Origin: Apostichopus japonicus
Lineage: Eukaryota > Echinodermata > Holothuroidea > Aspidochirotida > Stichopodidae
Reading direction: 5' to 3'
NCBI RefSeq assembly: GCF_037975245.1
Contig: NC_092583.1
Span: 9,075,764-9,139,763 of the forward strand
DNA length: 64,000 nt
The stretch's first letter is position 1. Every line of letters begins with the position of its first letter. Shown here in pieces: positions 3,170 through 63,285 of the stretch. The translations under genes and the position numbers were made by a program. The notes beneath the pieces were generated by a model. That model was not told where the DNA came from. It made no database searches and saw only the letters and a program-made list of their open reading frames with translations.

Positions 3170-3835
3170 ATAAACAAGGTTACGACAATTTGGCGTCTGG
3201 TGACTACAAATGACATTTGACCTCAATAAAACACAATTTGCATCTTGTACTGAACGTGCCACAACTACATACTGATATGAAATTCGTCCAACCTTCCCTA
3301 CTTGAGATATCGTGTGCACGGTTTTCAAAATTTGACCCGAGTAACCCAACATGAATTGGACCTCCACCAAGAGCAATAGGGATCTTGAGCTCAATGTGGC
3401 ACTCCTTCACACGAAAAAGAAATTGATCCAAGCTTTCCTTCTTGAGATATCGTACTTACAAGGTTCTCACAATTTGACCCCTGGTGACGCCAAATCACCT
3501 TTGACCTTCACACAAAACTATAGGCTTTTTTCCTAAGAAGGTCCTTCTACTTACGAAAAATAAGTGTAATCCTAGCTTCTCTTCTTGAGATATCGTGTTT
3601 ACATGATTTTCACTATTTGGCCCCTGGTGACCCCAAATGACCTTTGACCTCCCCACAAAACAATAGGGTTATTCTACTCAAAGTGTTACTCATAAACATT
3701 ATATATTAGATTGGTCCAAGCTTCCCTTCTTGAGATTCGTGTTTACAAGCGAGACAATACACATACACACACACATACATACACAAATCCGCCTGCACGA
3801 CTGCATAGGTTACGATTATCATCGAAAGCAAAAAC
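3170..3835 (-). repeat. 145-bp-repeat dispersed element, reverse copy (copy A)
   Basis: Read on the minus strand, it starts with the family's conserved end (GATAATCGTAACCT, 3812-3825). A GT-rich microsatellite follows, then diverged units carrying the family signatures CACGATATCTCAAGAAG and AGGTCAAAGGTCA (the latter as its complement at 3638-3650). Copies B, C and D further right share the same order, which identifies this as a dispersed element and not a local satellite. The far end is diverged and its border is approximate. Confidence 0.6.
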
Positions 3836-4200
3836 AACCTCTGTTAATAATTCTAACTGGTGTTTACACATATCGTTTCAATTGCGATTCTGCTAACGCT
3901 TCGTATGCAGTTGTTTGTCAGAAATATCTATATATATATGGTTCAATATTTATGTAACAGTTTAATAACGGTAACTTCATAAGATTATGGCATTGTGTAC
4001 GTTTAAATGTTATTGCCGGTTACTTAGCAATGATCACGTGATATCATTCGTTAGCTTTGCCATAGTTGTGGGTAGATGCATTCAGATCCATTGAGAAAAG
4101 GACTAACGTCATGTACATTACCTAATGATTAGACTTAAACCCAATAGAACGGGAATAGATAATTGTATTATGCCATGTTACGTTCTTATGCAGTATATAT

Positions 4201-4202
4201 TC

Positions 4203-4252
<50 letters not shown>
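4201..4252. repeat. (AT)n microsatellite
   Basis: Near-perfect alternating AT of about 50 bases. Confidence 0.9.
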
Positions 4253-4256
<4 letters not shown>

Positions 4257-4259
4257 TCT

Positions 4260-6065
4260 TTTGCGGGGAAAGAAGCAGTTCAAATTCATGCTGTGCCATT
4301 TTTTTTTTGGTGTCTAAGAATGAAATGTTTGTCCTTGAGAGCTGCCTGAAGTATATAGGGGTGTAGCCTTCTGTCTGTTATGCAAAATCCGGGCATGTGA
4401 AGTAGATGGAAGTTATTTTAGTTGCAGTCTTCATCGAGTAAAAATGTGATTTCCGTCGGGATGAGTCTTCATGGCGCAGAGAAATATGATTAGGTTTTAG
4501 TCTTTACATCCAGCGTATAATGAGTTTGTTGCGCGTAGTTTTATTTGTTTACTTTTTCTTTACTAACTCCTGCTTGACCTCTTATTTCGTTGTTTTATTT
4601 CACCAAAAGGTACTTAAGCCAACTGACCTCTTTCCTTTTTTTGTGTGTTGTTTCACGAAAGGATAACAACCTGCTAGAGAAACCCTCCCTGTCCCATTCA
4701 TTATAATAAATAAATTTCCCTAAAAAGGTGTAAACAACTAACACCATGCATCAAATTTACGTACCAATGAGAAACATTTTTTTACTTTATAGCATTCAGT
4801 GACTAGCTGTGCTGCTATACAATCCCCTGTTGCAAATTAATCCAACGCCAAACATTGCGACATTGTATTTTATGAATTATGCCTACTTTTGTTATTTAAA
4901 AAGACGGCCGCCCTTTAGAATCGTGTCATGTATTAGGAATCTACATTTTTCACGTGAATGCCAGCTGAATATACACTTTTCATAGCAATCTCAAAAATCA
5001 AAGGTTGGGACGAAGGACAAAATCTAGACCCGGATTTGCAAAGAATTGTGTCGGCGAACAATTAAACCATAGTTCTCATTTAGTAGCACACTTCTTCAAA
5101 ACAATACCTCAAATTCTCTAATTTGGTTCGTTATTCTCGAACTGAAAAAAAGACATCATACGTCAAACGTCGTTGTCTTTATTAACGGAAACCTAGATCC
5201 ATTGCTTAAGAAGCGCCAGTCAAAGAAACGATAAAAATTCTGTTAATTTCAGGATGATTTATTCTCTCCTCATAATTAATCAATGAATCAATAATATTAA
5301 TTACTTCAGGATAACCATTGGAAACAATCAATTTGATAATTATATGGCCGTAACAGACACCTTTGGTCTATCATTGACTGAAGAGGCTAAAGAGGCTTAA
5401 TTTTGTGTTGAATTGTTACAAAGTTGGATATTTTCATTTTCACATCTCAAATATGAAACTTTTGTGTGGTATCGGTATATGTGAAGAAAAAGTGCAAAAA
5501 AAATCATCTCCAAATTGCGCCATTTTTCATCATTTAATAATATCTCGATTTTCTAAAAATTCTGAAGGGAGAGGAGGGTACCCCTCCCCTCATACCCATT
5601 CTCGGCGATCGTTTGGCGATCGCATTAATCTCAAATGGGATGGGCCTTACTATAGATACAAAATGAGGAGACTTCGTTGTGAACTTTCCATAAACGGTGC
5701 CATTTGTATAGGGTATTGCGTTAAACATGCTGCAATGGAACAACAGTGTGAATGTAATAACCTTGTAGCCCTTTATGCTTATTATCATCAGCACTACCCA
5801 ACTACTCAAATATTTACTTTAAGTGAGAACAATAATGATCTTTTAACACAAAAACAGTTTCATTTGAATACAAAATCAAATTCTTGGTGACGTACATAGA
5901 CTGTTTGACTTGAATTGTTTGATTTAACAACCAGCTAGAGCTAAAACGAAACTACCTTTATAGTACTTGGTTAGTCAAAGGTGCTAGATAATGGCAGAAT
6001 TGTCTAGGAACTTTTGAAGTTACATATTAAAGCAGTAGACTATATATATATATATATATATATAA

Positions 6066-6106
<41 letters not shown>

Positions 6107-7180
6107 AGGTTTCTCCTAAACAAGAGCCCAAAGGGCACTGTGGTTCCTTGCTTGGGGTATATGACAATACACATGATATTATCAAGCAAGATTGGGCTCA
6201 AATAGTCCAAGTAATTGTGGTCCTACATGTACCTATAAAGTAACCAACACTATAGCCAACACTTTTGTGATCACAAAATGTGATCGGATTTTTGATCAAT
6301 AGGCACTTTTGAGATCTAAATATGGCTTCGAAAACGTAAGAAATATAAGGTCACCTACAAGCGGGTCAACAGATATGATAACATTGGTGACCTCAGATGA
6401 CATGACCTTTAAGTTTGAAAATGTTCCACCACCCCATTCACAACTTGTCCCAAAATATCAACCGTGTCACACCTTGGCATTGGGATTTAATTGCATTAAA
6501 TGTCTAAAAATTAACTTTGAACTTGTATACATAACTTCACACACAAAGGTCACCCGGAGGTCAACCAGTTGACATTCCCCCACCTATCCAAATAGTCCAA
6601 TATACTGAGTTATTTTGTCAGGTTTCTATTTTGAATAATAACGGGGAAATCGTAGAGTTTTCAATATTCCACTATTATAGAGAAGACTATAGGACCGTTT
6701 TCCACACAAATCGGCCGCAATTAAATGAAAGACACTATAACTGTATTCGTCATTTCCAGACATATATGTTGGACTGGTTAGGGAGACAAATAATAGTGGC
6801 CCACTAACTCAATGGAAGATATACTGAGGAAGAGGGAGAGGGGGGGGGGGGTATCTCAGGTTATGTGATTATCTCGATGGTCTGTAGACTGTAGGGTCTG
6901 TGGAGTCTGTAGACAGGCAGATCACCTGTATTGACTTTACGAACCCCCTTCCCTCCTCCCTCCCTCCTCCCTTCTCTCCTTTCAGTTTTGGAAATTCGAT
7001 ATATTTATTAACTACGTCATAACATTCAAAATTACACTCAAAGTGGTTCAGTTAAACATGAAAAAATATGAAAATCTCACCGAACTGCTTTAAGTTCAAT
7101 ATTGACTCAAACATCACGCGATATGGTTATATCTAAAAGGTCAAGGGTTAGTGGGCGTAATTTATTATTTGATTCATTTG
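4260..7180. other. intergenic spacer upstream of the death-fold gene
   Basis: No convincing exon was seen. The stretch holds an (AT)n tract at about 6041-6106, polypurine and polypyrimidine runs near 6835-6980, and diverged GGTCA-rich sequence near 6350-6570 that may be an old copy of the 145-bp-repeat family. The 161-codon open frame at 5405-5890 has no recognisable domain and low-complexity ends, so I do not call it a gene. Confidence 0.45.
6041..6106. repeat. (AT)n microsatellite
   Basis: Alternating TA tract with a few AAA interruptions. Confidence 0.9.
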
Positions 7181-7181
7181 C

Positions 7182-7190
7182 TATATATAC
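7182..7190 (+). promoter_or_regulatory. candidate TATA box of the death-fold gene
   Basis: TATATATAC lies about 330 bases upstream of a donor (T|GTAAGT at 7518). That donor pairs naturally with the acceptor at 7979-7980 in front of the first coding exon. A start site near 7210-7220 would give a 5' UTR exon of about 300 bases. Without transcript data this is only a plausible core promoter; AT-rich strings are common here. Confidence 0.3.
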
Positions 7191-7980
7191 CAGTTCAGAT
7201 CAAGTCTGTCCTCCTCTTTTACTAAAGCATTCAACTCTCTTTCGTGCTCCACACTTCAGCGTTTATTACCTAATATTCAGTTGAGAATTTGTTTGATTCT
7301 CTGATCAAAGTCAGAGCATTTCGTTGTCTTTTATGTGATCTAAATAAAAGGGCATTCTGTTTGAAATCTGTGTTATCACTTCTCGCTTTCTTGACGTGCC
7401 AGCGACTCAACATAAAAAACAAAACGAATTATATCAAGCACAAGTTTATATTCAAGACCTTTCGAAGAATATTAGCTGTACCTCACCTGCACCTGTCCAA
7501 CACAGACGTCTGTCATTGTAAGTAAAATAAAACATTTATTGATTTTTTATAAACAGCACTCCAGTTTAGGGAAGTATAGCTAAATTGTACAACATACCTG
7601 TTTTGGATAAAAAATGTAAATTTCTTTAGAGAAAATCTCCACTTTTGATCATCGTACATTTTCTCGCAATTCCAAACATTTTCTCACGCTTTCGCCGATT
7701 TTTTCGCAATCCAGCATGAACAAATATAACTGTAACGTAAACTTCTTTATTGATCGTAGACAGTGTGATTTTAGAATCGGGGATGACCAAAACCATCATT
7801 TCATCCATTATATTAAATTCAATGTTGCTCGTTAATCATCAAAACAGGCCACAGGATTCACCCAGCATAAGTCTTCTTTTGTTTCCCTATGATCTCTGTG
7901 ATTATTGCGATATTCCTCGATAAGAATTATTTTAGAAAGTCGTATTTGTTTTTTAAAAATGTTTCTAATTTTCTCCGCAG

Positions 7981-8065
7981 ATCAGGACTCCAGCTGCATT
8001 AAATATAATTCTCGTTGAACTAATAAACCACATAGGCCTATCAAAATGGCCAGCGCAAAAACTTC
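7981..8065 (+). CDS. first coding exon (5' UTR end plus MASAKTS start)
   Basis: The acceptor TTCTCCGCAG ends at 7980. The exon has no upstream ATG, then ATG at 8046 encoding MASAKT plus two bases, and a strong donor TC|GTAAGT. The two leftover bases join the A at 9800 to make Ser, which places the propeller exon in frame. This pairing chose the start. Confidence 0.55.
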
Positions 8066-11000
8066 GTAAGTATTATCATAATTATTAACAAAAACTAACA
8101 CAAGATCGAAATGGGTTTATATACTTGGCAATCTTACATGGCAATATAAAAAAGTATTGATTATTTGTTTACTTTACATTGTCCTTCATACAGGCAGTCA
8201 ATCTTTCACTCCTTATATCTGGCCCATTCATTCAAAAAGGTTGCCCACCCTTGTTTTATACTGAAAATAAACAGGCTGTTCATTCTTCAGATAACTCCTG
8301 AAATACGGGAAAGGGTTTAGTGTTGAAGGGTAGTAGGACATCACAGTGTTGTTGCATTGAGGAGTTAAAGCACAAAGCCAACTCAAATCGTCAATATAAT
8401 GGATCCTCTCTGTATTCACGGCTCTGGTTGGCTCCAGAGCCGTATGCCTAATTTTTATTCCCAGGACGGATTAGGGTTTCAGGTTTTTCAGGAATTTACA
8501 AATTCGTTTGAAATCAGAGTTAGGGTTTAGAAAGTGGGTTACAGATCGAGTTCCAAGTCGTTCATAGTCTGGGGTCAAAACTAGGAAAAAAGATTCAGAA
8601 CATGTCTTTTGAAAAGCGTCACATGTTTGGAAACCAGGTATTTGATTGGCCGATGCCCACATTCGTCCTGGGAAAAAAATAATACGCGAGCCGTATAGAG
8701 AGATATACGGCTCTGGTTGGCTTACTTTAATAGCGCCATTATTTTTAATTAGCGGAGCTTGTTGACAGTCAGTTTTCTTTGAATAGCGCCACCATTTACA
8801 AACTTGTGCGTTACTTTCTCTCTCTCCTTTTTCGGCCGCTAAATGAAAATTATTAAAAATGTACTTCATGCATCAACACCCTGGAAAAGTTGAATCAGAA
8901 CGTTACATAAAGACATACATATGATAACGATGATACATATGATAACGATGGAAGTTGAAGATAAACTAAATATAGCCTATGCAATTTCATCAATTTGACT
9001 GAAACTGACTTATTAACAAGCTTCTTATAGTCGGTGTTGTTATATGTGAGAGAACATTTGTGAAAGGAATATTTCATATGCACACAGTTACTAATTTCAA
9101 ATGTTTTTCTATTAATAGGAAAATTTACTAGGAAAGTATTTGATTCGGTCGATTTTCCAATTTCTAGCACTTTTTAACTCCGCTCGCCATATATACATTC
9201 ATGCGGAAATGTATTTTCTTCACGTTTATGCGGGAGAGGGTCTTAATGAGAAAATGCTATAATTGCTAGAAGTTTTCGACAAGTATTTTCCTGCAGGCCT
9301 TTATTATCCAAATTGTTCTCAGACATTTTTAGGAACACACAAGATGACTGAAGGTCCCAGTGAGGAAAATTTCCTCGAAGGTTGTAATAAAGTCAGTTTA
9401 AGAATGTTGACCAAAGGTGACCATATTTGAATATCTAGCATATTTGGGGCCAATACAGCATAAGTTTACGTCATGGATCTACAGGCCAGTATCCTTATTA
9501 TTACATTAGGCCTTGAACGTCTCATCTCTTATATCTTCGATATTACAATGTCGAATAGTTTGCTCTGGACATTTAGTGCTATTGTGGGTAACGACTTTGT
9601 AGTTCCATGCATAAATCAACAGCTTTTCAAATAATCTAGTGCCGTTTGTAAGACCTGGGCTGTATAGCTACTCAGCAGGCTGAGAGCTGTTCATCAACAT
9701 TTCCTTCGATCTAAAAATCAACTCTAAATTCTTCGTTACCACGGATACAACCTTCCAACCCTGACCTAACTTTTCACTTTTTGCCTTCCACACACACAGA
9801 GTGCATACAACGATACCTCGATTTACTGTGCAAGATGGTTACAGTGTGTCGGCAATGGACGTGCTAGATACAGGCCGTTTGGCTGTCGCTGGACATAATT
9901 ACTGGACAAAATGCAGCTTTATTGATCTTTTTATGTTACAATTAGATCCTGATTCTCAAGAAAAACCGTTATTATTGACGTCAGAGCCGTACTATTCTGA
10001 GGAATTTACCGAGTTTGGTTCAGAATGGCGATTTTTTTGTTTCCTGGATGATCGTCTGTTTTTAACGTGTTGTAAGAATACGATAGCATTGTGCGATAGT
10101 GATAATGGCGGTCTGGTCAATCAAGGGGAGTTGTTTTACAGTAATGCCTCGTGTATGACAACCAGAGATGGTTTAGTGTATGTCGGTTTAAAATCCAATG
10201 AGGTGATTGTCTTAGATGCGAGAGAATTGAGAATAATGAAGACAATCACCTTAAAAGGATTAGATAGTAGAGACTGGCCCTATGATATAACAGTTAGTAA
10301 TACAGAACTGTTTATTTGTACATACTATGGTGCGAGAGCTTTAATGTACAATAGTGAGGGAGAAGTAGAACAAGAATATACACACACACAGTTCAGACAT
10401 GCATATAGTATAACAGTCAGTGAAGAGAAAGGATTAATATTTATATTATGGTTTGGTGGTGAGGGTAGTCAAGTTGTTGTTTACTCTCTATCTGGGGGTC
10501 ATTCTTCCATCTCTGGGGGTCATTCTCCCATCTCTGGGGGTCATTCTCCCATCTCTGTGGGTCATTCTTTCATCTATGGGGGTCATATATTGGCTTCTTT
10601 TAAAGTTCCTGGTAATTCTTTGAGAATCAGGATCAATAATAGCATAAACAGATTGTTTGTGGTTACTGGAACTGGAGAAGTATATGAATATCACACAGTA
10701 AGTACTAATACAGGATATAGGCCTTTAGAGGTCTTGTTAATAATAATAAATAAATACTACTAACCTTTAATAATAGTTCTGTCTAGTTTAACCCTCCTTG
10801 GCGTCAGTCCAGGGAACTTGAACTGCCAGTTACAAGATAGATCCGTATTTATATATATATAGCAAAATCCTTATAATTGAATAATTGTATAACTGAATCC
10901 GAAGCGCTAGTAATTGGTGGGTTGCATTGCTACATCCCACACATAAAATGTCCGGTGGATTCCCAAAGAACATACGAAAAGTATATGAAGTATCGGCCTT

Positions 11001-14000
11001 TTTAGCCAGCTATCGCTGTGGTGTAGGCGATGGTATATATCGTAGTGCTAAAGTAATACGGCTTAGGAAACAACCTTCGCTGACCGATTCACTGAACGAA
11101 GTGACTGATAAAATATGTCGCTGTACACTTGAACTTATGACCCCAAAACTTTCTCTCGTTGGACACGGGTCCTCTTTGTTCAAGTTTATTATAAATGGGA
11201 GTGGAGACAAGCAAGAAAGTTGGGCGACAGAATGTCTATCAACAAAATACGTAGGCTGTTCCACTTTGCGAGAGGGAATATATAGGCTCGCTTGCAGTGC
11301 GGTCACTACAGGCCTATGGTAAAAATAAGGACTATTTATCACTTTCATTAAAGCAATCCATTGGTTGAAGCTCAACAAGTTGGGTATCATTCTATGCGAA
11401 CAAGTAAGGAGAAGAAACTCTTATATGTTTTGAGATCTGCTTTGCAAAATTTAAAGAAAAATAAGGACATTTTTTTTCTTGGGCTTTGCTGATTCTGGTA
11501 AGGTTGTCATGGAAGTGTTTTGTACTGTCAATGTACAAGTAAAATTGGTTTTCCTTATTTTCGCAGTCTTCATTACTTCAAATATAGAATAATATTACTT
11601 GTTTTTGAAGAGTGAGATCCAAATGGTGGAAAAGTGAGTGCAAAATTTTATGAAAAATTTAGGGCATTGGATTCTTGTTGCACTTTGCAAGATTAGAACA
11701 ACACACCAAATTTTGAAAATGTTTTTTTCTTATTTCTGAGCTTACAAGCTGCTAATTTTTACAAGTTTGGTATAAGTGAATCTTAATTTAGGCCATAGTG
11801 ACACTAGTGCACATGTATAGCAAATACTACAGTGATCATACCTTGATTTGATGACAGTATTTAAGTCTTGATAAAATGATATTGACACAATCTTGATTCT
11901 ATTTTGGGATGTAGTGCATTTTATTTAAGTGCAAATTAGTCAAAAATAAAGAAATAGAAGGGGAAAATGTGACCTTAGCCTTGTGGTGCTATTTTCATAT
12001 TGTCAACAGAGTAAAGACTGCAAAATTCACACAGCAATTGAAATCACTTTTCATTACTTCTGAGGAGAGAAAGTTGTAGCTAAGTAAAGGCTTTACTTTA
12101 ATAGGGATTACATTGAGTCAGTTGTCAGTCTTTTTGTCTGTTCTGTTCAAGTGGTTCATTTCACTTATGGCCTATGATTTCCATTATGAAGAATGTTCGG
12201 TGTAATGCAGTCCATATAAGTAACAATAAGTAACAGATTTTGGATTAATTCCTGACAAAAAGAAGTAGGTACAATTTAGCTGTAATATTCACTCATAATG
12301 TAGGTCATATGGGATTAAGCAGGAGAAAGGAGGCAAAGGTTAACTACTTTGAAAATTATGTCGATTTTTACGTTTTAAAATTAAGAAGGTAACTAAGAAG
12401 GTAATTAGTTACTGCTGTGTATTCCTGTCAGTTATGTGACAGTAACGATTAACTGTAAAAAGTGAAGACCCCCCATTTATTAGCTGTCACCAAGCCCACA
12501 GTGTAATGTATGCAATTGCTATATGCACATGGATTAAACATGATCATTGCTACCCATTGCATGAGAAAGCATTACCACATGTCAACCCGTGAAAGAACAT
12601 TGGTCTGCCTGTTAAAGGTCTTAAAACATGTCATCAGGCCACACCATAAAATAGTAATTTATGTCTAATGGGATTAAGTAATCCAGGAAACTTAGTTTAG
12701 CATTATAGTTGATAGTTGCACTTAAGTTTGCAATCATTAAATGTTTCACTACATGCATTCTTTGTCATTAGGCTGTGCATATCTCATACTGCAGTAGTCT
12801 CACATAAAAGTTAGTTGTATACACTATACACCAGTCTTAAAAAGTCTTGACAGTGCAACTGGACTTTGATTATTCAGGCCATTGAGCTGCAGCACATGTA
12901 GTTTAGCTGTGTAAGTTACAAGCATTTAGGATTAAATAAATTAATCTTCTGTAAGTAAAATACAGTGTAAAATACAATACTGCATCAATGATTGACATAG
13001 TATATATACTCATATAAAACAACACTGTTAATAATTAAGGAAACTGTTAGACGTAAGAAGGGGGGGGGGGGGGGTAGTGAGAGGGTTGTTTGTGTGTGTT
13101 TTAAATTAATAACTTTACTGTTACTGATCACCTACATAGAAGTCACGTTAGTTATTCTATTTTTATGATCACATTCCCAGACAAATGGGTCCCAATTGGT
13201 TAAATATGGAGAATAATGTTTAGCCCAATATAACTATATAAGTTGGTGGCATCATGAATATATAGATGAACAACAATCTGACTGATACAGCTTCGTGAAT
13301 AGAAGCATTTGTCTGTACAGTCTTAAAAATCAATCAATCAATACTTTTAATTTATTCTGAAATACATATAATATTGTACTTTAAGGAACTCAGGTAAATC
13401 ACAGTCACATAATCCATACCTTCATTATTTTGAAATAACTCCCTTTCTTTAAATATATGTGTTGCTGTCTCAACACCTCAAATTTCTACATCTATGTTGT
13501 TTTATAGTCTGCTACCACCAGTATATTTATTTCATTTTCTTCTTGCTGTCTTTTTGCTATAGAGTGACATCCTCTTTGACAGCCTCACATCATTGGAGTT
13601 ATTGATTGAAAAAAATGACTGTAAGAAGCTACTTGCCTACCTTGAAGTTCCAGCCAAGACATCAAAGGACATTATGAAGAGTGGTACACCCTTTTCATCT
13701 CTTGTCCACCATCTCAAAGAGGCAGGGGAGGTTTCTTCTGATGACATCAACTATTTAATGGCAGCTTGCTCTGACAATGGACTGAGTAAATTGATGGCAG
13801 TATTGACTCTCTTCCAACAAGCTCAATGTATGTTTATATCAGAGAGCTTAAAGCAGCATTTTGCGTTGGGTCGCTTTTTTCCACTTTTTTAATATGTGCA
13901 TCGATTTTTTTTACATGTATCAATCATAAAACAGCAATCTAAGATACCATCCAAGTTTCACCCTGCCAAGAGCGTTAATTAGCGAGTAATTAACGATTTA

Positions 14001-54249: not shown

Positions 54250-55312
54250 ATTATGTAGTTAGTTCAGTTTAGTTTAGTAGAAAAAAGGATCAGGAGGGAC
54301 ACTTAAGTCCCCATCAAGGACCCTATAGAGAGAGAGAGAAAAAAAACATGAACACACAGACACTCAGACCCGATTACAATGCTTAAAGTGCTTGTCCAAA
54401 GCATTCTTAAACCCATTCACACTACTTGCAAGTACAACTTTCTCAGGCAAACCATTCCACTCATTCACAACCCTATTAGAAAAAAATTATGCCGAATATT
54501 AATCCTACTATGCGACTTTTGGAGTTTAAGACAATGATCTCTAGTACAACTACTGTTAGCAAACAAGAAAAATTCGGTAAAGGATAAATTGTCGAAACCA
54601 TTCACAATCTTGAAAACCTGGATCAAGTCCCCACGTAACCTCCTAAGCTCCAGTGTGGTGAGATTCAACAGTTGTAACCGCCTATAATAAGGAACCCTCT
54701 TTAAGGAACTAATCATCCTAGTAGCCCTCCTCTGGACCTTTTCAAGTACTTCCTTATCCTTAGCAAAGTAAGGGTTCCAAGCCTGCACAGCATACTCCAG
54801 ATGAGGCTTAACCAACTGCTTATAAAGCCTAACTACGATGTCCTCTTTCAGAAAACTGAAGTTCCTCTTGATCATACCTAAAACCCTATTACCTCTTTTA
54901 GCAGCTTCAAGACAATGTTTAGAAGGTTGCAGAGATGAGTCAATGTAGATACCTAGGTCTCTTTCAACAGAGACCTCCTGTAACTCCACACCATTAAGAT
55001 TGTATGTAAACTTTTGGTTACTACTACCAATATGCATTACCTCACAGTTATCAATATTAAAAAGCATTTGCCACCCCTGAGACCAGGAAAAAATCTTATC
55101 CAAATCCGCTTGAAATTTCTCAGAATCGCTTTTGGAAGAGACCTCAGAATACAATTTGGTGTCATCAGCAAACTTCTTAGCTTTACACAAAATATCTCCG
55201 TCATGTCATTTATATAGGCAACAAACAACAAGGGACCTACCCTTGTGGAACCCCACTAGTAACGTTCTGCCAAGAAGAAGCACAGCCTTTAATTACCACC
55301 CTCTGTTCCCTA
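54250..55312 (-). mobile_element. CR1-like LINE, 3' half (split by the CACTG element)
   Basis: Minus-strand reverse transcriptase C-terminal half: KGCASSWQNVTSGVPQG, a small deletion where S-V-L is expected, then GPLLFVAYINDM, FADDTKLY (catalytic FADD intact), RDLGIYIDSSLQPSKHC, PHLEYAVQAWNPY and VQRRATRMI. These are CR1-type landmarks. It continues, across the 7.2-kb insertion, the N-terminal half at 62510-63285. The 3' end is approximate. Confidence 0.85.
55311..55312. repeat. TA target-site duplication, left
   Basis: TA immediately before CACTG; matched by TA at 62510-62511. Only one TA is needed to restore the LINE reading frame. Confidence 0.8.
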
Positions 55313-55335
55313 CACTGCAAAAACTCCGGTGTTAA
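55313..55335 (+). repeat. left terminal inverted repeat of the CACTG element
   Basis: Begins CACTGCAAAAACTCCGGTG; 22 of 23 bases pair with the right end. Confidence 0.9.
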
Positions 55336-55602
55336 CATTTTGGATTTAGCTTGTCGGTGTTGAATTCAGTGTTGATTTGACACCAAAGAGAATGCAATCT
55401 GACCTTCAACCTCGTTCAGGTAGAAGTTTCAGCCAATCCTTTTCCAAGTTACTCTCCTTAACGCGTAAATACATGATGTCATAGAAATCGGGACTCCTAA
55501 TTGGTCCATAGTAGTGGCAGTAATTATCATATCGATATTGTCGGCGAAGCTGTTACAGCCAAAGTTGCGCAAAGCAGACGAGGTGCAAACGAAGGGGGCA
55601 AT

Positions 55603-58600
55603 ATGTTCGTTTATTTTAGAAATGAAGAAAGGAAAGTTGTGGTGTTCAAGGAATTCAGAGATTTGATTGAAACAGGTATGCATTCTTTTGGAGATAAGCT
55701 GTGTATAGCCTATAGGTTTTAACTTTCTCGTGAAATGATAGGCAATCCACGGAGGCAAGGGAAGGTTGCCTTTCATAACTTCATCATAGGCAGATGCCTA
55801 ACGGAAGCCTATTGCGTAACCTAGGCCTAGGCTAATTGTTGCCGAAGGCCCTATAGCCTCTACAGGCCCAAAGCCTAGGCCTATAGATCATTTGTAACGT
55901 TATAAATCATTGCGTAAGCCTATAGAGCTGGCAGTTTAATTACTACTTTCCCTTGAACAGGGCTGTGTATCACTATTATATGTATCACTTTTAAATTAAG
56001 AGTACTTCTTTCCCTTTTACTAATTCAATGTGAAATGGAGAGTGATAGTTATACCATTAGCCTACTCCATACTCCATAGTCTCGAATATAATGCATGTAT
56101 GATGTAGCCTAGCCCAGTTCAAAGGGTCGTCGACGACTTGACCTAGCCTATATGTATAGTTTACGCCCCAGCTAGTTTAACTTAATAAGGACGTACCCCT
56201 ACTGTAAGTTGAAGCCTACAGTTCTATTGGCCACCAACAAAACTAGAGTAAGGTCCTTAAATAGCCTCACACTCATCATCACACTGATTATAATGCAAGC
56301 AATATAATTTTGAGGTGGGTTCTCAATCGTTTCGTGCTGCATTAAGCTGCTGTCGAAAGACATAATAAATAAGTTGCATTGAATCTCTTGCTGTTGAGCA
56401 TGTCTAATCATCTCTGTGTTCATGAATAGACTTTTTATTATAAGTAGTTAGTAGACTTAAATGAAATTGTTACACTGGAAAGCCATAGGGCATCAAATTT
56501 CATGCCTAGTAGCTTGCATCCCTCAATAATCCACAAGAACATTTGATGCAGATTTAGCCAACACAAAGACCAAATATGTGATAGGCCTTATATGATTTCC
56601 AATATTTCCAATTGATGACAGACTGCATATCTTAGATTAAAAGAAACTATGTAAAGCTTGTTTGTTATGTTGGTTTTGGCCAACTTTTGACTGCGAAAGG
56701 AAGCATATGTCTAGCGTACATGCTTAGAAAGGCAAAAAAGTAGATAATTTTGAAGCACTTCATTACATATTTACATTGTCAATCTTGATTTTCAAAGTAA
56801 AACTTGTACTGCAGGTCTAAGTGATTTCACTGTAGGCTTTTTCTGCAAGGCATGTGTAGGGTGAATGTATTGCAGTCTATATGGTAGTTTTATTACCATT
56901 AAATGTTGGCTAATTGCCTCGTTAGGGCAAATTCTTAAAAAATCAGCAGTTTTTACCATTTGATTTACAAATTCAGACAAATGAAGCCCCAACTTTTGGT
57001 CACTATGTTTCTGTTTGTATACTATCTTGCAAACATGCAATTTGCTGAGAAAAATGACTTTGAGCATGAGTTAGACATGACGCTCTCTGTGCAGGCCAAC
57101 TTAAGGGAGTAAATTTAATGATACAAGGTCAAGGGCTGTTAAATTTAATGCGTACAGACCTATTTCAGGGCTTAGTCCTAACAAAATAGACTTAAGTATA
57201 TATGCATGACTAAATCAAAAGTATGATACTTGCTGGTTTATTCTATTTTCTTTCATATATGATACAGCAAAGAAGAAATTCAAAATTGCTGAAGATGTGA
57301 TACTTGTGGATAGAGAGGATGGAGCAGAGTTTGATGAAGATTCTCTTGTACCTCTCCTTGAAATGGAGCAAAACACAGCCATCATGGTGTTAAAGAGAGG
57401 TGAAAAGTGGGGTTAGTGGCAAATAAGGAGCTACAGACAATGCAAAATACTCTGCTTACATGAATAACCAATAATTTCCAATGGGAAAATGAAGGTTAGT
57501 GTGGTGGGATCTCTGACAACAATTCCTTAATTAGGAATAAGCCTATACCTTTTGTCACAGAAAAGATCCCAGAGGTTCCTCAAAAATGACATTTGTTGTT
57601 GTTTTCGCCTCGTTTGGTGGATAACACCTCAGACTGGCTCCTTGATCCCCAGCATTTCAAATTGGGAATTTTGTTTACTTTCCATACCACATTGAGAGTA
57701 GTGTGTAAGCATAGTTTATACAGTGGCAGTCACAATCATATGGTCAAGATAACAAGGGTTGAACGTTGAATTTTGACTGCAGTTTATCAGCGTTGTACTG
57801 TTTTTCCCATAATTTTGGCAATTCCCAAACGCAAAACACAGAAGATTTGAAGAAATGTCTCATGTAGTGAGGGTATATGCAAGTACAGCAAAACAGATAA
57901 GACTTAATTGCAACTAAGGGGTAGCAGCTCTGCAGCAGTTTTAATGTCTGGTTCTTATGGCTAGTTCTGTGAAGTTTTGAAATCAATGTGTTACATTAAT
58001 TGCCATTTTTTGTGTGGTTGTAGGATTGATTACTGGTTAACCGATTGAAAAATTTGACCGGTTATCAGTTCATGGATTGTTAGAAAATGCACATTCCTAT
58101 TCATTACAAGAAATGTGTTCACCTATCTCTAGCTATGTGCTTAACAGCAGATTTTCTTTTATTTAGTATCTCCAGCAGCTGCAAGGGTTAAAATAGACAG
58201 CAATTCAGATACTGATGTAATTTCTGAGGAAGATGATACTCAAGATTATGCTAATCTTCCCTCCACCAGTTCTGCACCTCCCATGAAAAGATTTAAGGAA
58301 ACAGAAGCAACAACAGATGAGGCAGCTGAGGTAATCACATTTAAACATTTCTTTTAATGTTGAGGGCTTTATACCATTCAATGGAAACCTACAACATGGC
58401 AAAACATTTGCTCCAATTAGAAAGTTTTGGTATCCTCCTTTGCATTTAACAATCTTTGTGACAATGTATTGTATTTATTAATAATGCTTGAATCCACTTT
58501 GCTCCCAAAGACTTTGGATATATAGCATAAAACAACTCAAGAGCTGCATACATTGGTGTTGGATTTGGGGTTTGACATCTGGACTGAACAGAAATATTAC

Positions 58601-61096
58601 TTTTGAGATTTTCATATTTGCTATTAATTTTTAAGATTCTGAACAGTCAGTAACCTAACAAATTGATGTAGCCTTAAGCATTATGGGTTGAGGTGGGTGT
58701 CACCAATGTAAAATATGAATGGATTTGGTGGGAAAATAAGTGGGACTGACGTTTTGATGCTGGGAAGATCTCCTGTAGAAGTCATCTCTGGATTTGGAAT
58801 GGTCTTTGGGTATCCAATTTAGGATTTCAAAGGACATTAGAAAACAATAATACTAATATTAAAATAAAAAGAATGAAGGTCTTTTACTAATTTATGTTAC
58901 AAAAGCTCTAATTATGAATCTCTAAAGTTCATTACAACTTTCAAGAATCCTTGTATTTTTTTCTACACTTTATTAAGTGCAGTTCTTCAAAAAAAGTGCA
59001 AGTGGAGCCACTGTTTTAGCTGAATACAGAGCCCAAAAGTGTCTGAACGAAAAGTCCAGGAGATTGTTGGTAAACATTGTAGTTGCTAACATGATGGAAG
59101 TACATGGGTAAGTTTTATTTTTGTAGTTGTAAACAGAGAAAATCATGATTGCTGCAATGAAATGCTTAAAACTTTAACATGTCTATGAACATGGATTAAT
59201 TGACACATGTAAGTAAGTAAGTGCTCCATTGATGAAACATTTAGCTGGTCAACCCATGAAGATAGTTGGGAAATTGGAGAGTGGCAGTAACAATTTCTGA
59301 CTGCCACACTTGTGCCAATTTTTAATCAGGCTAATTGGTATGTTCCTGTTACAGAATGAGTTGTCTGTTGCTTTGTCAGATCTGATCCTGAGCTGGGGAT
59401 CCATTGTAAACTTAGCCTTAAAGATCTCCTGCATTGGCCCCAAATTAGCACAATAATAGAAAAAATGTGTTTGCTTTCAAGGACAGTGATGTGACATGAT
59501 CAGTATTAACCATTGAACACCAGGTATTGCTTTTCATTTTAAATATTCTCCACAGACAATACCATATGCTGAAAGACACATGTTATTGAAATTGTGTACA
59601 CAAACTTAGTTGGGCTAACCCAGGCAGTTCAATTTCATTATGTTAGAAACTTTCCTAGTTCATAGCATGTTATATTTGGGAGCTCTGACCAATACAGCAG
59701 ATAGCTGAGCGCCTTTAAAGACCCCTTTCTCCTCTGTGCAAGTGAATTTCAAGACCCAGGTTATTAAATTCAGCATTGGTCCATTGTTGTTTTTAAGAAT
59801 ACACAACATTTGAACTGACCAGTATTGCAGGTTTATGGCAGATTTGTGGTGAGAGAAAAGGGCCTTTAAGTAATCACTCATTTAGTAAGGCAAACATCTA
59901 ATACACTAATATCACACTTTATTATGATATAATATACTATTACACCATATTATAATACACTTTATTTCCCCCTACATCTACCATCACAGACGGACGCCAC
60001 CTACGGTCACAAAAAGAAAAAAAGAAAAATGCAGTCGGTATTGTCAACCTGTTTGAAAACCTTCAAGACCCATACACACCAACAGGTCATGTAAGTAATT
60101 AATTTAAATAAACTGCAGGAGGACCCAAAACCCCCACCAAGGGTTTTTGGATTAAACACTTGCTGTCATAGGGACATTATTGTAAATTTTGGAACTATAC
60201 TTCAAAACAGTTGTTCTGCAGTATCATAGTTTAACATTAAATGCAGGGAAAAGGCATACATGCATAGGAGGGGAAATGGTTTGTCTAATGCAGGGCCAGT
60301 CAAATTTTACATTATAGGTATCATGATCTTTCCAGGACAAGAGGAGAACTTTTTTTCTCACTTAAAATGTTGGGACATGCATGATTTGGAACTGGACATT
60401 GCCATGGAAAACATTTCATCTCCCCCCCCCCCCCTTTGCAATTCTTCCTTTAGATGCCCATGACTTCAGTAGAAACAGAGGAAGTTGTGGTTAAAGGTCT
60501 CTTGTATAAGCGCTGTAGTTTTGCTAGTTCAAACTAAAATTACTGCCACATACTCATAATTTCTGAGAGTGTTTTTGATGGTAAAGATGTCTTGGAAGCT
60601 ACTTATGAAAACTCCTAGCAATTTTCAACCTACAGCTTAACTTGGGAAATGCTATTAAGAAATCTCCAACTGGAGAGTGGTACATAAAATGAACCACAGC
60701 TAGTACTAAGTACATTTCATTATTATTTTCAGGAAGCTTTTTATGATGAAAGAACCAAAGGAGGATTCCTTGCAGCAAGGATAAAAAAACGTCAATAGAG
60801 GAGAACATCATTCTGAACAATCAAACATAACTCCAAAGGACCCTGCCTGCAAGCAAGATGGAGACCCCATGCTTAAAAGGCCATTACATGCTGTGTCTGA
60901 TAACCTGCAATCTGAAGATAACACTACAGCAGATGTAAACTGGATGAAACATACCCCTGCTGTATCTACAGATTCTAATTTGGTCTCTGAGAGGATGAAA
61001 AATACTCTATTAGTGAGGAGAAACATGGTCAATGCTATGAATTCAGCAGGGCATATAATAGAGGAATTTCCACAATTCAAGATTACTCGAGGCCTT
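55603..61096 (+). CDS. CIDE-N domain protein with SAMD3-like C-terminal region
   Basis: Exons 55603-55675, 57268-57411, 58167-58330, 58983-59107, 59990-60090, 60733-61096, all with GT/AG borders. Exons 1-2 join to a CIDE-N domain: MFVYFRNEERKVVVF, FKIAEDVILVDREDGAEFDE, MEQNTAIMVLKRGEKW (compare the L.eDGT.vd.e..f..L..nt..mvL..GqkW pattern of DFF40/DFF45/CIDE proteins, a protein-binding fold in apoptotic nuclease control). Exon 3 is acidic and Ser-rich. Exons 4-6 (RRLLVNIVVANMMEVHG, VGIVNLFENLQDP, GHEAFYDERTKGGFLAARI, GHIIEEFPQF) match the region common in SAMD3-like proteins. One extra A in A-runs at about 60025-60029 and 60783-60789 breaks the frame; with both removed the total is 969 nt. 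The last exon ends CTT|GTGAGT and its continuation was not found. The gene lies wholly inside the CACTG element. Confidence 0.65.
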
Positions 61097-62280
61097 GTGA
61101 GTATGACACAAAGTATTCTGACTGGTGTCATGTATGCTATTAGACTGTGGATTGCATGCATTTACAAGTGTGCGGGGGAGATATGTCTGTCATGGGCATG
61201 GACGTCGCTAGAGGGGGTGTGGGGGTTGCGACTGTCGCACTTTAAACTTTCCAACTGTCGCACTCTCATTTTCACATATTCTTATAATTTGCGAGTGACC
61301 TAACATTTTCGGTCAAAATTGACCTTCAATCAGTCATTTTCACCACGTTTTCTTTGTCAAATTGAGACATTGTATCTCGCGATCCTTATACTCCACCATA
61401 AAAAACTTTGTTAGAGTTTTGTTTGTAGCACACTGTTTTACAAACCATTGTTTCATGGATTTGCTGTGAAAGAGGCAGTACCTCAGCAGACTTCTGTCAG
61501 GAAAACCAGTGAACTTGTTGACTTCAAACCACTGTCATTACTGAGGATTCAATCCAGATGTGATCATACACTTATGTCTGTCCAAGGCACATAATTTTTC
61601 AATGAGTTAATTTTGCACATTTTTTGGCTGAAGTAACCCAGTCAGTGTTCGTTTCTAACAATTGTTTTTATCTGTGAACAGTTATTAAATTGTTTCGCCA
61701 GCTAGAATATTAGAGAACATGCTACAAATTACCTTTTAATCAGTGTTATGTGATTGCCAATGGTTCAGTTATGTTCAAACATATAATTATCAAAGTAACA
61801 CTGTGTTATAGTTCAAGTGTAAAGATACGAATACACAGTGTACATTGTATACATACATCCGGGTATTAAAGTGTGATATCATTGGTTTCCATGCATGTGT
61901 TTATCAGTTTAAGACAAAGGTATAATATTAACTTTAAGCATTTATAATATGCAAGCATTATGATCTGATTTATCTTCATTAAAAAATAAGTTTCTAATCA
62001 GTTTATGGGCTTGCTCATGTTAGACAAGCTTTTGTTCATTCTTGTTTATGCACTTAATAAGGTGTTTTCTGTACAACTGATGCTTCTAAGATGAATATAA
62101 AAAACGTGTAACACATTTAAAATGGCATCTATGGCTTTTATCTGTTGTTTATTGCTTATGCGTATTGTCCAGCCCAGACTTTGGCGATACCTTGGAAAGG
62201 TGTTTTACAAAATACAGAATTAACACGATCTGGATTGGATAAAGAAACTTGCAATTCAACATCAGTGGGAAGATCTAAAT

Positions 62281-62494
62281 AACACCATTTTTGGTGTTAA
62301 AATCAATTCAGTTAGTGTTAATTTTACACCAACCAGAGTAACAATATCAACACCAAAGATAATGAATTTAACACCCTTTGTGGTGTAAAGAAAAGGATTC
62401 TCAACTTGGTGTTAATTTAACACCCGCTGGTGTTGGCAAATATGCACTCCAAAAAGAATACAAATTTAACACCATGGGTGTTAAATTTAACACC
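62281..62494. repeat. subterminal GGTGTT/AACACC repeat cluster
   Basis: Exact copies at 62281, 62292, 62349, 62370, 62408, 62419, 62429, 62468, 62477 and 62489 in both orientations, often with AT-rich TTAAATTTAA between them. This resembles the subterminal binding-site arrays of DNA transposons. The left end has copies at 55328 and 55356. Confidence 0.85.
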
Positions 62495-62509
62495 CGAGTT
62501 TTTGCAGTG
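62487..62509 (-). repeat. right terminal inverted repeat of the CACTG element
   Basis: Ends GAGTTTTTGCAGTG; complement of the left terminus with one mismatch. Confidence 0.9.
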
Positions 62510-63285
62510 TATTACCAAGCCAATTCCCGATCCAAGACAGTAAATTCCCTATGACACCCATGCTCTTCAGCCTAAGTAAAAGACGCTGGTGGGGAACTTT
62601 ATCAAAGGCATTCTGGAAATCCAGGAACACGACATCTACAGACCTCTGCCTATTTAGTGAACTTGCTACATCTTCCATAAACTCAAGGATATTAGTGAGA
62701 CAAGACCTTTTTTGACAAAAGCCATGTTGAGACTCTCTGGTCAAAGACTGACTGCTGAAGTGACAGACCATAGACCTTTTAACAATAGACTCCATGACCT
62801 TACAAACTACACTAGTGAGACTAACGGGCCTATAATTACAGGGCTTAGACTTATCACCCTTCTTGAAAATTGGGGTAATATTAGCACATCTCCAGTCCCT
62901 AGGAACATAACCTTCATCCATAAATTTACTAAAAACCAACGAGAGTGGAACGCAGAAATGATGTGCAAAAGTCTTCAACAAATACGGATGGATTGCATCC
63001 GGTCCAGAAGCTTTAGAAACATTTAGACGAAGCAGCTCCTTTAAGACAACCTCATTCGAAAATAAGACCGTATCCAGTTAAGGCCTATCACTGCCCCCCT
63101 GAAAATCTGGAATACTACTCGTATCTTCCCTTGTGAAAACCGACACAAAATAGTTGTTCAAAAGATCTGCGAGATCCTGACTATCAGTTACTATATTATC
63201 AGCCTGTGGTGCCCTAAGAGAAACAATTGCATCTTTTACTTTCTGCTTTGACCTGACATAAGAAAAGAAAGTTCTTCAGGCTTGT
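62510..63285 (-). mobile_element. CR1-like LINE, 5'-truncated N-terminal half
   Basis: Minus-strand text runs from FFSYVRSKQKVKDAIVSL through NNYFVSVFTRED, NVSKASGPDAIHPYLLKTF, ITPIFKKGDKSKPCNYRPVS, QHGFCQKRSCLTNILEF and VFLDFQNAFDKVPHQRLL to SWIGNWLGN at the insertion point. These are the fingers/palm of a CR1-type reverse transcriptase; motif A LDFQNAFD is intact. A stop interrupts the upstream linker. No endonuclease is present, so the copy was 5' truncated on insertion. Confidence 0.85.

Follow-up and report, generated by a model that had tools for sequence, protein, structure and literature searches.

What does a 7-kb segment with the ends of a DNA transposon do with a gene for a CIDE-N/SAMD3-like protein as its only readily visible content? 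The segment lies at positions 55313-62509 of a 64,000-nucleotide stretch of Apostichopus japonicus DNA (NC_092583.1, 9,075,764 to 9,139,763), which is called the window below. The initial annotation left two possibilities, a captured host gene or a core gene of an undescribed mobile element. We suggest, with a probability of about 0.86, that the segment is a non-autonomous, internally deleted copy of a two-gene transposon of the CACTA/EnSpm (CMC) type, and that in its complete relatives the CIDE-N/SAMD3-like gene overlaps the open reading frame (ORF) of a predicted RAG1-fold transposase. The label SAMD3-like is provisional and comes from the initial annotation; no homologue among the matches listed bears the SAMD3 name (uncharacterized, hypothetical or unnamed).

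Ends and copies of the element

The segment is inserted into a long interspersed nuclear element (LINE) and has the following boundaries:

55311-55312: target-site duplication (2 bp, TA), left copy
55313-55335, + strand: terminal inverted repeat, left (CACTGCAAAAACTCCGGTGTTAA)
55328-55361, + strand: two GGTGTT subterminal motifs, left (element positions 16 and 44)
62281-62509: ten AACACC/GGTGTT subterminal repeats, right (control made on copy A)
62487-62509, - strand: terminal inverted repeat, right
62510-62511: target-site duplication (2 bp, TA), right copy
62512-63077, - strand: interrupted host LINE (reverse-transcriptase frame), which resumes left of 55310

The inverted repeats are 23 bp long with one mismatch, as first described (25 nt at 96% with the TA, 55311-55335 and 62487-62511). 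Within the window TACACTGCAAAAA is found without mismatch only at the two element ends; with up to two mismatches it gives five matches, not above chance, so the weight is carried by the end pair, the flanks and the other copies. When the element is excised with one TA left, the reverse-transcriptase frame reads IGNWLGN^REQRVVIKGCASSWQNVTSGVPQG and is unbroken across the joint, which bears out the reported restoration of the LINE frame. The subterminal repeats also withstand a control. The full-length copy A, described below, has the same ten AACACC/GGTGTT repeats in its final 250 bp versus 0.17 per 250 bp of its interior, and first-order Markov simulations of it gave a mean of 0.48, the largest of 2000 being 6. 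Such dense subterminal repeats and the CAC..GTG inverted repeats, present here as CACTG...CAGTG, are both expected of CACTA/EnSpm (CMC) elements.

Collecting copies by their ends, as had been proposed, shows that the ends belong together. The first 388 bases have at least 42 genome matches (a lower bound, 40 of 55 candidates scored), 22 of them of at least 380 bases and 12 at 99% identity or more, the window included; the last 400 bases have at least 47 (40 of 53 candidates scored). A right end follows on the same strand within 25 kb at 19 of the 22 full left ends, and at 21 of 42 if partial ends are included. Eight of the 19 spans measure 7.13-7.29 kb, three 12.36-12.40 kb, and the eight others fall between 6.2 and 14.2 kb. 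Twenty of the 21 other full left ends were fetched with flanks (C5:3880098 was omitted); several copies are about 97-99% identical to the window copy end to end, others 89-95% or with insertions and gaps. Both termini could be read exactly in the window and at 12 of the 20 places, for ten of them inside the stretch as fetched and for A and B once it was extended. The flanking dinucleotides match in all 13 of these copies, TA in ten and CA in three, a 2-bp duplication within the 2 to 3 bp of CACTA/EnSpm (CMC); the TA flanks first noted are thus a property of the window copy and no strict rule of the family. L014-L016, L018, L020 and L026-L028 do not enter this count, an exact end being absent or outside the fetched stretch; L018 has an AA-flanked right end and no exact left end. 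Two copies, L017 and L019 (C16:6680996 and C3:21525567), both contain about 478 additional bp around element position 3600, which marks a further subfamily.

The two genes and their order

The part of the window copy between its ends is composed as follows:

55603-55675, + strand: exon 1 of the CIDE-N/SAMD3-like gene, start of CIDE-N (GT/AG boundaries by eye)
57268-57411, + strand: exon 2, remaining CIDE-N (boundaries by eye)
58167-58330, + strand: exon 3, acidic Ser-rich linker (boundaries by eye)
58983-59107, + strand: exon 4, SAMD3-like body (boundaries by eye)
59990-60090, + strand: exon 5, with the frame break common to eight fetched copies
60733-61096, + strand: exon 6, second frame break in an A run near 60784; last kept exon, splice donor at its end (boundaries by eye)
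61197-61420: internal-deletion junction, about 224 bp replacing 4.6 kb of the full-length element
61421-61567, + strand: remnant of the transposase 3' end

The gene matches exon by exon P0001, a 532-residue protein listed for A. japonicus. In P0001 the CIDE-N domain (PF02017, E 3e-10, 40.4 bits) exceeds the curated cut-off of 23.5 bits; window exon 2 alone stays under it (E 5e-4, 20.5 bits). The multi-exon CIDE-N gene of the initial annotation is real in its exons and domain, but in the window it is truncated and carries two frame breaks. The break in exon 5 is common to the window and L009-L013, L015, L016 and L018 and is absent from A and B; that in exon 6 occurs in the window, L009, L011, L013, L018 and also L017 and L019, not in L012, and its status is not readable in L010, L015 and L016. 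The window subfamily apparently multiplied while lacking an intact copy of the gene, and we suspect that the protein was supplied in trans.

No transposase had been recognised inside the segment, and six-frame Pfam scans of the window copy return no transposase family. A remnant is nevertheless there, at 61421-61567, and agrees with the end of the full-length transposase at 43 of 49 residues. Compared with copy A, the window copy has lost A 6784-11381 (4.6 kb), with about 224 other bases in place, and is also without about 0.9 kb of intron 4 (A 4099-5011).

The complete elements are copy A (G000:C5:10748622-10761021, 12,400 bp, CA duplication) and copy B (G000:C12:19944828-19957189, 12,362 bp, TA duplication), 98% identical to each other. 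Each has all nine P0001 exon matches together with a same-strand open frame of 840 codons (824 residues from the methionine); the inspection of other copies thus reveals the same gene together with an intact transposase ORF. The last codon of the P0001-like gene and the first codon of the ORF share one base (GAATGAGT, an ATGA overlap), and the coordinates at C5, C7 and C12 give the same arrangement; the third copy, C7:4667155, has a span of 12,386 bp and a broken transposase.

The ORF was spotted by its length and by its homologues, of which P0078, P0081 and P0101 contain PF02992 (Transposase_21) and P0118 has it under the cut-off (E 7e-4). The full-length copies and the homologues have the DDE motif with C(2)C and H(3-4)H between the second D and the E that is typical of CMC transposases, and in the predicted model of a Holothuria homologue the catalytic core has a RAG1/Transib-like DDE fold. 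The intact ORF is predicted to encode a RAG1-fold DDE transposase. A PDB sequence search with the transposase gave one chance-level match only, and the viral contigs scanned with it contain no relative. As the transposase is of a known kind and the CACTA/EnSpm (CMC) superfamily is already described, calling the element undescribed was too strong.

Recurrence of the gene pair

Within this genome P0001-like sequence is tied to the element. Of the 81 P0001 matches that received a score, 80 have a left end of this family no more than 30 kb upstream, and the remaining one is a fragment at C19:27033411; as the scoring covered 81 of 650 candidates, there may still be a distant host gene. With the last 140 residues of P0001 as query, 150 scored matches among 447 candidates were obtained, mostly at 30-45% identity. 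After merging of neighbours there are 143 such C-terminal loci and 53 transposase loci (55 of 492 candidates scored). A C-terminal match lies within 20 kb of 27 of the 53 transposase loci on the same strand and of none on the opposite strand, against a mean of 0.35 and a maximum of 3 in 1000 random placements, a contrast that is overstated, since the 27 include same-family copies (for example four at 13.84-13.86 kb) and are fewer than 27 independent cases. Five of the 27, one of them an old relative on C9 with 63% identity, are of the CIDE-N family, and their match precedes the transposase start by about 1-1.5 kb; in the other 22 it lies 6.8-13.9 kb downstream of the transposase. Two unpaired families (L037/L045 and L038/L044) nonetheless have SAMD3-like exons downstream.

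The other families differ in the head of the partner protein. The 1.8 kb upstream of the transposase was inspected at 12 other loci, picked as different families, and five (L032, L034, L037, L038, L041) show a sequence that resembles the latter half of a SAM domain, with a splice donor at its end. Pfam support is weak for L034 (E 0.018) and L038 (E 0.083) and absent for L032 and L037; L041, joined by hand to a first-half exon, matches SAM_1 with E 6.5e-7. SAMD3-like exons are found beyond the transposase at all three loci followed downstream (L043-L045; three of the 12). Those of L044 and L045 are in P0001 order and, joined by hand, match P0001 with E 3e-28 and 7e-24, values that are somewhat flattering, since the exons were partly chosen by resemblance; L043 has an exon read by eye and a C-terminal match 13.9 kb downstream. 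Judged from this exon order, the transposase of the SAM families seems to lie inside the second gene.

Two further groups of loci deserve mention. Five transposase matches of equal score (G000:C21:11205810, C10:15936411, C12:21006712, C16:30104230 and C20:32819642) have intact 841-residue frames, 35% identical to the window's family, and are likely a recently amplified SAM family. In another SAM family, L048 and L049 (G000:C14:22541492 and C19:4543312) are 99.89% identical over 1820 bp up to the same abrupt stop, the apparent 3' end, which does not read CAGTG; their last 320 bp hold 16 CAGTCT/AGACTG motifs versus 0.2 per 320 bp before. They represent a second two-gene element, likely active in recent times, whose termini differ.

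Public gene models join the two genes in Apostichopus and in two other animal genera, Holothuria and Nymphon:

P0118, Holothuria: SAM (E 0.0015, under the cut-off), transposase, SAMD3-like
P0120, Holothuria: transposase, SAMD3-like
P0097, Nymphon (sea spider): transposase, SAMD3-like, weaker
P0003, Holothuria: CIDE-N gene, then transposase start
P0004 and P0005, Apostichopus: SAMD3-like, then transposase

Transposase and partner show 68% and 59-74% identity to Holothuria, 50-52% and 45-51% to Lytechinus, and 36-38% (aligned rows) and 35-44% to fish; this roughly parallel divergence of the sequences, in which some partner records are partial, is suggestive only. The Leuciscus gene model P0130 is a SAMD3-like protein ending in a DDE_3 piece (PF13358, E 4.6e-9) that belongs to a different type of transposon; the model may be a chimera or reflect a nested insertion.

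Taken together, complete copies, recurrent linkage and fused gene models strongly support one of the two initial proposals, in which a mobile element has the protein family as a core gene; this would explain why the family expanded. The SAMD3-like gene looks like a regular transposon partner rather than a captured passenger, and the much-repeated family likely spreads as a working transposon part and not as captured host genes.

Several observations weigh against this reading. Pfam finds no Transposase_21 at E <= 10 in the CIDE-N family's own transposase (best DUF4218, E 0.16), and six-frame scans of copy A from position 5001 of L025 to the end return no transposase family. Between the A and B transposases 6 differences are synonymous and 11 are not, with no purifying selection at this short distance, for which the differences are too few. 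Twenty-six of the 53 listed transposase loci are without a nearby SAMD3-like C-terminal match, and most of the 143 C-terminal loci are without a nearby transposase among the matches listed. Seven of the 12 other families have no SAM-like exon in the upstream 1.8 kb, and of the five that do, only L041 exceeds the Pfam cut-off. The Lytechinus transposase (P0011) and partner (P0124) are on different contigs and thus not one locus, and the fish and Lytechinus partners have no CIDE-N match at E <= 0.1. The partner model is poor, with a predicted local distance difference test score (pLDDT) of 46.9 and values near 85 confined to residues 124-236. None of its Foldseek matches has an E of 1 or less, and they were left unused; PDB and NCBIfam sequence searches of the protein gave nothing usable.

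Proposed mechanism, alternatives and meaning

In plant En/Spm the protein TNPA gathers the subterminal repeats and pairs the ends. We suggest that the transposase would cut and paste the element at its CACTG ends, and that the SAMD3-like protein may be the animal counterpart of TNPA, binding the subterminal palindromic repeats. Self-assembly of its SAM or CIDE-N head would then bring the two element ends together. SAM domains polymerise (PMC4980433), head-to-tail helical filaments have been proposed for CIDE domains (PMC8647176), and self-association of the ETV6 PNT domain aids cooperative DNA binding (PMC7949025). Replacement of one self-assembling head by another is in keeping with a scaffold protein that collects the repeats and joins the two ends. 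In the CIDE-N family a single transcription unit might yield both proteins through termination-reinitiation at the ATGA overlap; in the SAM families one unit could yield both by alternative splicing of the gene that encloses the transposase. The window copy presumably moved with proteins supplied in trans.

The strongest competitor, which we nonetheless consider unlikely, makes the SAMD3-like protein a selfish passenger or a host-defence antagonist, for example against silencing. What was measured fits this role and the machinery role alike, and transposons do carry such genes, for instance TET/JBP in fungi (PMC12730594). The linkage over diverged families, the swapped self-assembling heads, the dense subterminal repeats and the matching En/Spm plan would rather favour a part in transposition itself. 

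Far less credible is a single capture of an intron-bearing host CIDE-N gene as passive cargo. Outside this family, CIDE-N is known in host proteins linked to apoptosis and to lipids, the gene has introns, and Pfam sees no transposase in the window copy. However, 80 of the 81 scored P0001 matches (650 candidates) lie inside this element family, and next to divergent transposases there is a related body that bears a SAM head; recurrent linkage speaks against capture of the SAMD3-like body, and the addition of CIDE-N alone at a late stage would amount to a swap of heads. An element of the PIF/Harbinger-ISL2EU or Tc1/mariner kind that inserts at TA, to which the TA flanks of the window copy would point, has a negligible chance in view of the CA duplications in 3 of 13 copies, which break a strict TA (or TWA) rule, and of the CMC/RAG1-like transposase motif and predicted fold; the full-length copies weigh against it too. 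An assembly artefact at the junctions, for which no sign was seen, is just as improbable, as the end pairs recur at 19 of 22 places and the 2-bp flanks match in 13 of 13 copies with exact termini.

The two-gene CACTA plan is similar to that of plant En/Spm with TNPA and TNPD, which likewise has CAC... ends, subterminal repeats, a DDE transposase and a second protein; the apparent position of the transposase inside the second gene of the SAM families recalls that of tnpD within a tnpA intron. Unlike in plant CACTA elements, where the target duplication is 3 bp, it is 2 bp here, the partner of the transposase is SAMD3-like and has either SAM or CIDE-N as its head, and in the CIDE-N family the transposase comes after the gene with a 4-nt overlap. 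Transib, ProtoRAG and RAG1, with 5-bp duplications, differ also in terminal sequence, partner protein and the C-terminal BAH-like domain. Relatives of CACTA that duplicate 2 bp and use alternative splicing and tandem ORFs are on record in animals, and SmTRC1 and other TRC elements likewise make second proteins from spliced transcripts; they have 2-bp direct repeats in 7 of 14 copies and CCC ends in place of CACTG, and in the accessible part of that article the portions outside Transposase_21 are reported as not detectably conserved and no SAM/CIDE-N gene is described (PMC1636069). Fungal EnSpm elements carrying TET/JBP, and ESTA with its TA duplications, likewise combine a CMC-type transposase with a second domain-bearing protein, but their partner is a dioxygenase and their hosts are fungi (PMC12730594). 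In the literature searched, including the accessible parts of PMC12730594, PMC9587614 and PMC10298005, no SAM- or CIDE-N-headed SAMD3-like CACTA partner is reported; Repbase and most subscription papers are outside this scope, and prior knowledge is possible.

More broadly, we put forward tentatively, and at somewhat less than even odds, that animal CACTA elements are two-protein machines of a RAG1-fold transposase and a filament-forming end-binder, the polymerising head of which is swapped between SAM and CIDE-N, unrelated domains that both assemble head to tail; that the SAMD3-like families of echinoderms and fish are their genes and debris; and that host SAMD3 may be domesticated, as RAG1 was from a related transposase. 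A large unexplained animal gene family thereby gains a likely origin and job, and a second core gene would be added to animal CACTA elements. The swap between SAM and CIDE-N suggests that the conserved function is self-assembly at the ends of the transposon, and the likely recently active copies (pairs 98-99.9% identical) would make the role of a TNPA-like partner studiable outside plants. Last, gene annotation is affected, for such loci are publicly labelled as uncharacterized host proteins.
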